The position numbers and the translations under genes were made by a program. 64,000 bases of DNA from Phototrophicus methaneseepsis (GTDB taxonomy: Bacteria > Chloroflexota > Anaerolineae > Aggregatilineales > Phototrophicaceae): NCBI RefSeq assembly GCF_015500095.1, contig NZ_CP062983.1:4526001-4590000 (forward strand). Direction: 5' to 3'. Position 1 is the stretch's first letter. Each line of letters begins with the position of its first letter. The notes below the pieces were generated by a model. The model did no database searches and was not told the origin of the DNA. It saw only the letters and a program-made list of their open reading frames with translations. Below are positions 56,343 to 59,561 of the stretch, piece by piece.

Positions 56343-57164
56343 TTAGTTCAAGCGAGCAGACAGTGCGTTCAGGTTGCTACGAACGCTGCCATCGATCACG
56401 CGGCCAGGGGCACGCACGATCAGGCCACCCAGAATGGCCGGATCGACCACATAGGTGATGTCTTCAGTGCTCAGTTCGCCAGCAATCTTGGACTTTTCAG
56501 CATCGGTCAACGGCATAGCGCTGACGACCTCAACTGAACCCGCCACGTTTTTGGCATCAGCAGGCACTGTGCTGAAGAAGTTGCTGACCAGAGCTTGCTG
56601 CTTCTGCGGGTCGATTGACTCGCCCAGGATGCGCCCAGCTACGGCGCTAGAAATATTCAGCACCTGCTCGCGCAGACCAGCCAGCTCAGCATCACGAGCG
56701 GCCACACCCTCTTGATGGGCATTGACCTTGATGCCTTCAGCTTCTTGCTCAGCGGCCAGACGAATGGAGTTCGCCACTTCGTCACCACGACCACGAGCTT
56801 CTTCCAGCAATTTGGCTGATTCCGCACGGGCAGCAGCCAGGATTTTCTCGGCTTCAGCTTCAGCATTCTGACGTGCACGTGCAGCAGCGGCTGCATCTTC
56901 AAGGCCCTTCTGAATCTTCGCACTGCGAGAATCCAGGAAGTTCACCAGCGGGCGCCACAGCACCACGCCGAGAATGACGGCAATCAGGATGAAGTTGAAG
57001 GTATGCGTAAACAACAGACCAGCGTTAATGCCCAGCGGCGTCAGGGGGCTTTCTGCAGCGGCTGCGTGTTCTTCCTGGGCCAGGGCCACAGCGGGGAACA
57101 CAGCCAGAATAGCCACCAGCATTGCCGATGCCGGGATAAGCTGTTTCATGATCTTTTTACTCAT
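56343..57164 (-). CDS. atpF: ATP synthase subunit b with delta-like C-terminal domain
   Basis: 273 residues. The start looks like a signal peptide or first membrane helix (residues 5-30, ending AVALAQ), followed by a second helix (about 52-72) and the long b-type helix (about 75-180). The last ~70 residues read as the C-terminal part of subunit delta: LTDAEKSKIAGELSTEDITYVVDPAILGGLIVR then RVIDGSVRSNLNAL. The N-terminal helical domain of delta is not present. ATG 57164 is fixed by GGAGG ten bases upstream. The gene is the last of the Fo cluster (atpI-like, atpB, atpE, atpF); no atpH, atpA, atpG, atpD or atpC follows. Confidence 0.9.
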   Translation of the reverse strand: MSKKIMKQLIPASAMLVAILAVFPAVALAQEEHAAAAESPLTPLGINAGLLFTHTFNFILIAVILGVVLWRPLVNFLDSRSAKIQKGLEDAAAAARARQNAEAEAEKILAAARAESAKLLEEARGRGDEVANSIRLAAEQEAEGIKVNAHQEGVAARDAELAGLREQVLNISSAVAGRILGESIDPQKQQALVSNFFSTVPADAKNVAGSVEVVSAMPLTDAEKSKIAGELSTEDITYVVDPAILGGLIVRAPGRVIDGSVRSNLNALSARLN

Positions 57165-57186
57165 CGTAATCGGACCTCCCATCGCG

Positions 57187-57420
57187 CTAAAGCACGAACA
57201 GGACAACGAGCGCGACCACCAGTGCATAAATAGCCACAGCTTCCGCGAACACGATACCCAGAATCATGTTTGTCTGAATTGCACCGGCGGCATCTGGGTT
57301 ACGAGCGATACCCTGCATCGCACCCTGTACCATCAAACCAATGCCAATACCCGGGCCAAAAGCACCAACCATAGCCAGGCCAGCACCTACTGCCTTCAAA
57401 CCTACATCGAGTCCTTCCAT
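57187..57420 (-). CDS. atpE: ATP synthase subunit c
   Basis: A 77-residue, two-helix proteolipid: helix one [23 protein letters not shown], loop ARNPDA, and helix two [15 protein letters not shown], with the proton-binding glutamate at residue 59. The Na+-binding pattern (Gln in helix one, Ser/Thr after the Glu) is absent, so protons are probably the coupling ion. AAGGAG lies nine bases before the ATG. The gene is 22 bases ahead of atpF and 131 bases after atpB. Confidence 0.95.
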
Positions 57421-57551: not shown

Positions 57552-59183
57552 TTACACATGTGCCTCAACGTGATCTTCTTCATGGACGTGGCTAACCATC
57601 GCCTGTGCACAGAAGAGCATGGTCAAGATTGCGAACACAGCCGCCTGCGCCGTACCGACGATCAATTCCAGGGCGAGGATGACAACAGGAACCGTTGTAC
57701 CCACCAGGAACATGATCACGACGAACAGAACAGACCCTGCGAACAAAGCACCAAACAAACGGAAGGAAAGACTGATGATCTTACCGATTTCCGAGATAAT
57801 CTCGAACAGACCGACCACAAAGTCAATCGCACCCAGAGGATGCTTGGCAACTGAACCCAGAGCATGAACGTTGATAAACTTCTGGAAGTAGTTCAAGCCC
57901 AGTTCGCTGATACCAAATGCCTGGATGGCAACGAAAGCGAGCAGCGCAAGCCCGATGGTGAAGCTCAGGTCTGTTGCGACACCACGAACAAACGGTGCAA
58001 CTGTGAACAACTGGTTGGTGAAGGTTGTCGCTTCCGCACCCACAAGGGCTTCGCGGATGACAATTTCCTGTCCAGCTTCAAGCTCTGTCGTCGGGCCAAT
58101 CGCGACCACATCTTCAAGCTCGTGTTCAGCTTCTTCTGCGGCAGCTTCTTCTGCAACGGCTTCTTCAACCTCAGCAGTTTCTTCGCCTTCGGCAGCTTCT
58201 TCAACCACCTCTTCCGCAGCTTCTTCGCTGTGATCTTCTGCCGCTTCGTGTGCATCAGCACCCGCAGCAACGAGATTCACAGTGCCATCATCAGCAGTGT
58301 TTGCCTCGATGATGCTCTCCGGCGAAATTTCTACCGGTGCATAACCTTCATACTCGACATCGACATATTCACTACCATCATCCAGCTCGGCAGTCAACAG
58401 GTCAGGAATACGAACCGTGTTAAAGTACTCAGCGACTTCTTCCAGCGTGTCCCCTTCTTCAGTCAGATAGGTCACTTTTTGATCGCGGAAAGGATCGAGC
58501 TGAGTGGGCAGGTAAGACTCATAAGCGTCAATACCCATCATCGCTTCGCAGCGATGGTAACTTTCATCGGATGCGGGTGTACCTGTATTGAGCGCTGCAT
58601 CGTTCTTCAGCACGAAATAAGGTTGCCCAGTGAATGACCCCAATTCGGAGACAGGGAAACCATTCAACACGACCGGATCATAATCTGCACAGTGCAGCAC
58701 ACCGACAGTTTCAACACCCGGCAGCAACTTACCCAGGTTACCTGCAAGCAAGAACAAGAAGATGCTCGCAACCAAGGGGAACAAGATGTACTTTACTTTG
58801 GGCTTGGTGCCCGCCTGATCTCGTGTCAGTCCCCACCACATGGAGCCGATTAATTCGACCACACCCTGGAACCGACCCGGTACTTCTTTCGTCCACCCTT
58901 TAGAAGCACGCCAAGCGAAGAACGCAATCAACAGGACGATGATATTCGCCAAGAGTGCGCCGCCAAGCGTGTTGACCAGTTGGAAATCCGGGAAGATCGC
59001 CTGGATTGGCGACAAGAAACCGGCCCAACCTTCTATATAGTACTCTGCGGGCACAGTAATCACAGGGAGTGTGACGGCTGTCCCCCATGCAGGGAGCACT
59101 ATAAAGGGGAATAAGAAGCACCCGAAGAAGGCGAAGATAACCAGCCCAACCAGGTATAAGCAACCACGTTGATTGGTGCTCAT
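57552..59183 (-). CDS. atpB: ATP synthase subunit a with large insert
   Basis: Subunit a, the proton channel, is normally 240-350 residues; this one is 543. Membrane segments are at about 10-30, 75-90, 130-152, and the standard C-terminal group from 400 on, with the essential arginine at 475 (SLSFRLFGALFAG). Between about residues 162 and 386 lies an extra, probably outside, part: residues 238-254 (TYLTEEGDTLEEVAEYF) and 286-304 (ISPESIIEANTADDG...), then 366-376 (TELEAGQEIVI), read like a LysM module interrupted by an Ala/Glu-rich acidic stretch (308-358). The C-terminus is His-rich. GGAG is nine bases before the ATG. Confidence 0.92.
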   Translation of the reverse strand: MSTNQRGCLYLVGLVIFAFFGCFLFPFIVLPAWGTAVTLPVITVPAEYYIEGWAGFLSPIQAIFPDFQLVNTLGGALLANIIVLLIAFFAWRASKGWTKEVPGRFQGVVELIGSMWWGLTRDQAGTKPKVKYILFPLVASIFLFLLAGNLGKLLPGVETVGVLHCADYDPVVLNGFPVSELGSFTGQPYFVLKNDAALNTGTPASDESYHRCEAMMGIDAYESYLPTQLDPFRDQKVTYLTEEGDTLEEVAEYFNTVRIPDLLTAELDDGSEYVDVEYEGYAPVEISPESIIEANTADDGTVNLVAAGADAHEAAEDHSEEAAEEVVEEAAEGEETAEVEEAVAEEAAAEEAEHELEDVVAIGPTTELEAGQEIVIREALVGAEATTFTNQLFTVAPFVRGVATDLSFTIGLALLAFVAIQAFGISELGLNYFQKFINVHALGSVAKHPLGAIDFVVGLFEIISEIGKIISLSFRLFGALFAGSVLFVVIMFLVGTTVPVVILALELIVGTAQAAVFAILTMLFCAQAMVSHVHEEDHVEAHV

Positions 59184-59234: not shown

Positions 59235-59561
59235 CTATTCCTCCTTATGTTCTAGTGGAACCGCTATGGGCACCTCATCCTCTACGGTTTGAACTACCTC
59301 GTGCGTTGGTTGATCATGCTTGTGTCCAAGTTTTGAGATCAAGCCAAGCGCAATTCGGATCATGATAAACAGGCTGAAAGGAACGCTGACCACCAACAAA
59401 CATATTGTGGCTGGTCCGCGCTGGCCTATCATGCCATCAATCCATAAGCCTAACGACAGCGCTGAAAATGCAATGAAAAGTGCGATGCAACCGGTTAAGG
59501 CGCTGATACCTGCAATAGCCAGGTTAGATATGCGCGGCGCACTCTTGTGACGCTTCATCAT
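59235..59561 (-). CDS. AtpI/AtpZ-like small membrane protein
   Basis: 108 residues with two membrane helices (about 12-38 and 47-75), a basic N-terminus, and an acidic/His-rich tail. The helix motif SLGLWIDGMIGQRGPAT, with Gly-Asp/Gly-rich turn, is typical of AtpZ/AtpI proteins, which help assemble the c-ring or carry Mg2+. It lies 51 bases before atpB, the usual place. Two ATG codons (59561 and 59558) are possible; the ribosome site is weak. Confidence 0.75.
   Translation of the reverse strand: MMKRHKSAPRISNLAIAGISALTGCIALFIAFSALSLGLWIDGMIGQRGPATICLLVVSVPFSLFIMIRIALGLISKLGHKHDQPTHEVVQTVEDEVPIAVPLEHKEE

Follow-up and report, generated by a model that had tools for sequence, protein, structure and literature searches.

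The window, i.e. the whole stretch of 64,000 nucleotides analysed here, belongs to the genome of Phototrophicus methaneseepsis, which consists of one contig of 5,631,885 bases. On its minus strand, the open reading frame at 57552..59183 (atpB) encodes subunit a of an F-type ATP synthase with a length of 543 aa. This identity, given in an earlier note made from the sequence alone, is borne out by PF00119 (ATP-synt_A), which scores 95 bits against a gathering score of 33.9, with the alignment broken into two stretches, the best of which covers residues 389-525. Arg475 (57759..57761, minus strand) sits in an R-L-F-G motif that is invariant in our alignments, and we take it to be the counterpart of E. 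coli Arg210, the stator arginine on which subunit a depends. Downstream on the same strand follow the gene of subunit c (atpE, 57187..57420, PF00137 with 61.3 bits), a b-delta fusion (56343..57227, PF00430 with 79.5 bits and PF00213 with 49.2 bits) and a Mur ligase gene, murE by our own reading. The delta portion of the fusion corresponds to the C-terminal part (PF00213 profile positions 97-172). The coordinates of the fusion are those of the longest open reading frame, whose true start possibly lies further in, and by eye a signal-like stretch precedes the membrane helix of the protein. Upstream of atpB, at 59235-59561 on the minus strand, an open reading frame of 108 aa, in which two membrane helices seem likely by eye, occupies the usual place of AtpI; it gave no match in a Pfam search at E<=0.001. 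The C-terminal tail of subunit a (57555-57620, minus strand), which the usual topology would put on the inner side of the membrane, belongs to a set of tails rich in His, Asp and Glu, these three residues making up a median of 45% of the last 22 residues in 93 sequences of the order.

The outer loop of subunit a

Compared with 9itj_T, the best-scoring solved subunit a against the window protein, residues 64-169 and 393-536 align with residues 43-141 and 178-310, and the gap between the aligned halves amounts to 223 residues in the window protein versus 36 in 9itj_T. The insert of about 220 residues without counterpart in ordinary subunit a, which the earlier note had described, is therefore real. 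From this gap and the flanking hydrophobic stretches we delimit an expanded loop at residues 164-393 (58005..58694, minus strand), preceded by hydrophobic stretches at 67-95 and 128-155 and followed by one at 401-430. There are 60 acidic against 8 basic residues in the range 152-401, and three acidic against six basic ones in the range 96-133, as expected for the outside and the inside, respectively. By the known topology of E. coli subunit a, the loop between helices 2 and 3 lies on the outer side of the membrane, and an outside location of the LysM-bearing loop is thus supported by homology.

The loop begins with a two-cysteine module at residues 164-212 (58548..58694, minus strand), defined by cysteine counts and alignment and containing Cys165 and Cys212, both of which are invariant in an eight-row alignment. 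Among the 93 distinct loops of the order, 86 have two cysteines, 5 have four and 2 lack cysteine; the pair fits an extracytoplasmic location of the loop. Together with the placement between helices 2 and 3, it agrees with the outer-face position that had been predicted for the insert. The module, about 49 residues long in the window copy, had no Pfam match there.

Long loops are not peculiar to this genome, an explanation that can be ruled out since they are common across the order: loop length ranges from 53 to 279 aa with a median of 134, and the median acidic share is 19% (93 distinct subunit a sequences in both cases). A sequencing or frame error as the origin of the insert is likewise ruled out, since six genomes have it in stop-free open frames. 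With both the long loop and the two-cysteine module common in the order, the window case is to be seen as one form of a wider theme. In L014-L019, L047 and others, the same loop is by eye filled by long charged, helix-like stretches and not by LysM, L047 having the longest loop with 279 residues.

A LysM-derived module interrupted twice

Downstream of the cysteine module, the loop holds three pieces that together correspond to a LysM domain. The first part (strand 1 to helix 1), TYLTEEGDTLEEVAEYFN, comprises residues 238-255 (58419..58472) and was located by Pfam in orthologues, by a segment test and by a PDB profile; it is followed by insert 1, which separates the LysM helices (residues 256-285, 58329..58418). 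The second part (helix 2), ISPESIIEANTA, comprises residues 286-297 (58293..58328) and was located by the segment test. Insert 2, an acidic Ala/Glu-rich stretch, spans residues 298-366 (58086..58292). The third part (strand 2), ELEAGQEIVIR, comprises residues 367-377 (58053..58085) and was located by the segment test and by conserved residues. All of these features lie on the minus strand, and the limits of both inserts were taken from an alignment of the six sequences that carry the module. The three pieces picked out by eye in the earlier note, and the Ala/Glu-rich stretch it had placed inside the LysM, are thus all present.

A contiguous LysM of about 43 residues was not found, and three pieces with two inserts stand in its place; because of this non-contiguity we name the module LysM-derived and not a canonical LysM. 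The double interruption is shared across the clade of six, with 27-41 aa in insert 1 and 16-69 aa in insert 2, while the pieces (18, 12 and 11 residues) show zero indels in the six sequences, so that length change is confined to the inserts. Mean pairwise identity among the six is 0.57 for the first piece, 0.38 for helix 2 and 0.58 for the third piece, compared to the inserts with 0.31 and 0.36 and the membrane core with 0.71. Invariant in 6/6 are the LysM hallmarks G-D-T-L, the helix 2 Asn and Leu-x-x-Gly-Gln with the following Arg; further invariant columns are LDPF-x-D at the start of the region, the helix 1 Ala, a Tyr-Tyr-Gly triplet within insert 1 and a Gly that follows strand 2.

Curated models recognise the module in part of the clade. 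In the window protein, searched at full length and as loop pieces, PF01476 is absent at E<=10, and the window copy matched a plant LysM model only (E=0.045 and 0.022). Against a PF01476 gathering cut-off of 20.9 bits, the cut-out regions of L011, L012 and L013 reach 30.3, 29.9 and 32.8 bits and the full proteins 25.2, 25.8 and 27.7 bits, all above the cut-off, while L020 and L107 stay below it (region 19.5 and 19.6 bits, full protein 14.9 and 14.0 bits, respectively). The good LysM score that the earlier note had named as support was obtained in three orthologues and not in the window copy. The best Pfam LysM stretches stop by profile position 25 of 43 and so cover the first half only. No NCBIfam model reached its own cut-off on the five clade regions searched. 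A profile built from the six regions gave 18 matches at E<=10 among all PDB sequences, the best being 4uz2 with E=2.8e-8; we take 16 of the 18 to be LysM-bearing, the other two being 2mcm, which is not a LysM protein, and 8vd6. This profile match, too, supports chiefly the first half of the domain.

For the remaining pieces we turned to a segment score matrix for which 26 LysM domains encoded in this same genome were used (of 35 places, 30 were fetched and four of these dropped for a stop inside the widened stretch). When the loop of each of the six proteins was shuffled, the first segment outscored 2000/2000 shuffles in every case. Downstream of it, the second and third segments in the right order were found with p = 0.0005 in the window copy, 0.001 in L011, 0.004 in L012, 0.0005 in L013, 0.0105 in L020 and 0.001 in L107, and in the six-way alignment 0/5000 column shuffles attain the observed score. 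As a negative control, the other 87 distinct subunit a loops gave first-segment scores of at most 6.4, compared to 17.9 (the window copy, the lowest) to 38.2 in the six, and an HMM of the same-genome LysM domains had no match in these 87 loops at E<=1. Structure models contribute little: AlphaFold returned a mean pLDDT of 36.6 for the full protein (8-row alignment) and 39.1 for the L001 loop (2 rows), values so low that no fold claim is built on them. A Foldseek search with the low-pLDDT loop model listed 20 matches with a best E of 1.6, among them 5yz6 (rank 7) and 2mpw (rank 13), both titled LysM, and the CVNH protein 5c8o (rank 6), which we take to be LysM-bearing; with such E values we discount them as chance and not as fold support.

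Taken from Pfam in three orthologues, the PDB profile, the shuffle tests and the tree described below, the descent of the loop module from LysM appears near certain, and the split LysM proposed in the earlier note is supported.

Distribution and origin

The LysM form was sought in relatives within the phylum. It occurs in 6/98 genomes of the family, in the same six among 154 genomes of the order, and in three of these six among 396 genomes drawn from the class. These runs used a five-row profile (A2) and scored, among the matches listed, at most 31, 19 and 7 candidates per genome for family, order and class, respectively; with so few candidates misses are possible, above all in the class, and it is within this scope of 396 class genomes that the LysM form was not seen to be widespread. 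The subunit a of G013 (L108), which is without LysM, was picked up by the profile in each of the three runs, and G125 (L109) matched in the family run only, with an unrelated three-LysM protein. In a phylum-wide PF00119 run 377/400 genomes matched, with open frames of 225-461 aa among the matches listed.

For comparison of relatives, 94/101 genomes matched and 90 were used, with G005, G021, G034 and G080 left out; these 90, one sequence from the family run and the named contigs gave the 93 distinct sequences. In a tree of their membrane core, the six LysM carriers fall on one branch with a support of 100/98, and their clustering was equalled by 0/500 label shuffles. The LysM carrier G113 has an assembly of 8.5 Mb, and the nine other members in the tree of the genus it is filed under have a different loop; G113 may therefore be a mixed assembly. 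The simplest account is a single gain of LysM in an already long loop.

Possible function and comparison with known systems

LysM usually grips cell-wall sugars, and the bacterial ATP synthase, whose core varies little, is commonly pictured as free in the membrane. The best explanation of the locus as a whole is in our view a LysM-derived outer module acting as a predicted wall tether on the stator, a reading we hold tentatively, at close to an even chance. A LysM domain would have entered the already enlarged loop of subunit a, downstream of the two-cysteine module, in one clade; two inserts interrupt it, and the three pieces would still come together and fold. The folded module would bind GlcNAc-containing wall glycan and thereby tether the Fo stator to peptidoglycan, which would hold or position the synthase during turning of the c-ring, in the way that MotB ties the stator of the flagellar motor to the wall. 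The predicted tether between stator and peptidoglycan is plausible at a little under an even chance. Slightly more tentative is the picture in which the Fo stator would grip peptidoglycan beside the proton entry channel, fix the site of the synthase in the filament and perhaps sense wall tension.

In agreement with a wall tether, the host genome contains peptidoglycan genes, with the Mur ligase inside the window and ten transpeptidase matches in the genome. Its other LysM proteins were sampled as 16 distinct open reading frames (30/35 places gave 18, from which L124, in the wrong frame, and L126, the same protein as L116, were removed), of which 15 have a hydrophobic stretch able to serve as signal or anchor. 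The exception, L120, has no stretch over the threshold, L116 and L117 have a second one, and none of the 16 has more than two separate hydrophobic stretches. Strain ZRK33 of P. methaneseepsis is described in the excerpted text of PMC8941918 as a deep-sea, filamentous member of the Chloroflexota that was isolated and cultured, with a membrane and a wall surface layer in thin sections, and an excerpt of PMC11005417, in which the LysM-derived domain is not mentioned, reports in situ upregulation of its ATP synthase genes.

Binding data on the AtlA LysM, as excerpted from PMC4083421, bear on glycan binding in both directions. There, T13A, L14A and I39A reduce affinity 60-80-fold, and D37A and L38A about 12-fold. 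By our own mapping, the places of T13, L14 and I39 correspond to Thr and Leu of GDTL and to the Leu three before Gly-Gln, all invariant in 6/6, while the places of D37 and L38 are not conserved in the six, which counts against a tether. The glycan pocket of LysM is bordered by the loops between strand 1 and helix 1 and between helix 2 and strand 2 (excerpts of PMC4356369 and PMC4083421), and insert 2, acidic in the window, sits in the latter loop, where it may hinder or gate binding; this, too, counts against a tether. According to the same AtlA text (PMC4083421), a single LysM bound GlcNAc5 at about 12 uM, and peptide-bearing peptidoglycan tetrasaccharides were bound only in the millimolar range, which likewise counts against a tether. 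We further count against it that the window copy is without a PF01476 match and has the lowest first-piece score, that helix 2 identity is only 0.38, that AlphaFold yielded no reliable fold, and that, to our knowledge, rotary catalysis requires no wall anchor.

Two further roles have to be weighed. The LysM-derived fold could have been retained for a protein contact at the outer face, for example for pairing of two synthases or for contact with the N-terminus of b-delta or another complex, and not for glycan. Such a contact would agree with an acidic insert in the glycan-pocket loop and with the quite different sequence that other members of the order have in the same loop, which suggests a general outer-face role, and LysM1 of a T. 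thermophilus endopeptidase packs on the catalytic domain of its partner (excerpt of PMC4356369). It would not, however, require the three glycan hot-spot positions that our mapping finds invariant in all six, and we consider it unlikely. In the other case, the module would be a decaying passenger in a tolerated acid- and histidine-bearing loop at the proton entry mouth, where charge or proton buffering would matter, if anything. The variation in loop length across the order (53-279 aa, median acidic share 19%), the C-terminal tails likewise rich in Asp, Glu and His and the first piece scoring lowest in the window copy could all be read in this way. Pieces that stay constant in length in the six while the inserts vary speak against decay, as do first and third pieces with identities of 0.57 and 0.58 above the 0.31 and 0.36 of the inserts, although the helix 2 piece (0.38) hardly exceeds them; a passenger seems improbable. 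A chance or convergent beta-alpha likeness to LysM, without common descent, could appeal to a window copy that alone lies below every curated LysM cut-off and to Pfam stretches ending by position 25 of 43, which leaves the second half to our own segment test, but it is very improbable and largely refuted already by the shuffles, the 87-loop control, the PDB profile matches and Pfam scores above the cut-off in three orthologues.

Should the predicted wall tether be true, the energy motor of a small Chloroflexota clade may be tied to its cell wall. With LysM placed on subunit a, wall fixing of the synthase becomes directly testable, in a host that is in culture. The outer loop of subunit a is also shown to accept whole domains. 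Among the matches listed from the open-access literature, none described a LysM domain within any subunit of an ATP synthase.

With ordinary F-type subunit a (PF00119, 9itj_T) the window protein shares the transmembrane core, the R-L-F-G motif and the gene order a-c-b, and differs from it in the length of its loop. With LysM (PF01476; closest solved structure 4uz2, an endopeptidase) the module shares the strand-helix part, GDTL, the helix 2 Asn and Leu-x-x-Gly-Gln; unlike it, the module of the window clade is split twice and resides inside a polytopic channel subunit. The CVNH-LysM lectins 5c8o and 2l9y, which are among the PDB profile matches, also have a LysM housed within a second domain, but there LysM is whole and the protein soluble. 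In peptidoglycan-bound stators of the MotB type, too, the wall holds the stator of a rotary machine, a likeness that depends on the predicted tether being true, and MotB binds the wall through an OmpA-like C-terminal domain, unlike LysM. From the same phylum come PilO-like proteins of L. aerophila (Chloroflexota) with a C-terminal LysM, encoded near archaellum genes, for which the excerpted text of PMC12488501 suggests anchoring of the rotary machine. Wall fixing of a rotary machine is likewise proposed there, by separate accessory proteins and not by an insert in the channel subunit of the motor itself, and we regard them as a precedent for the principle but not for the architecture.
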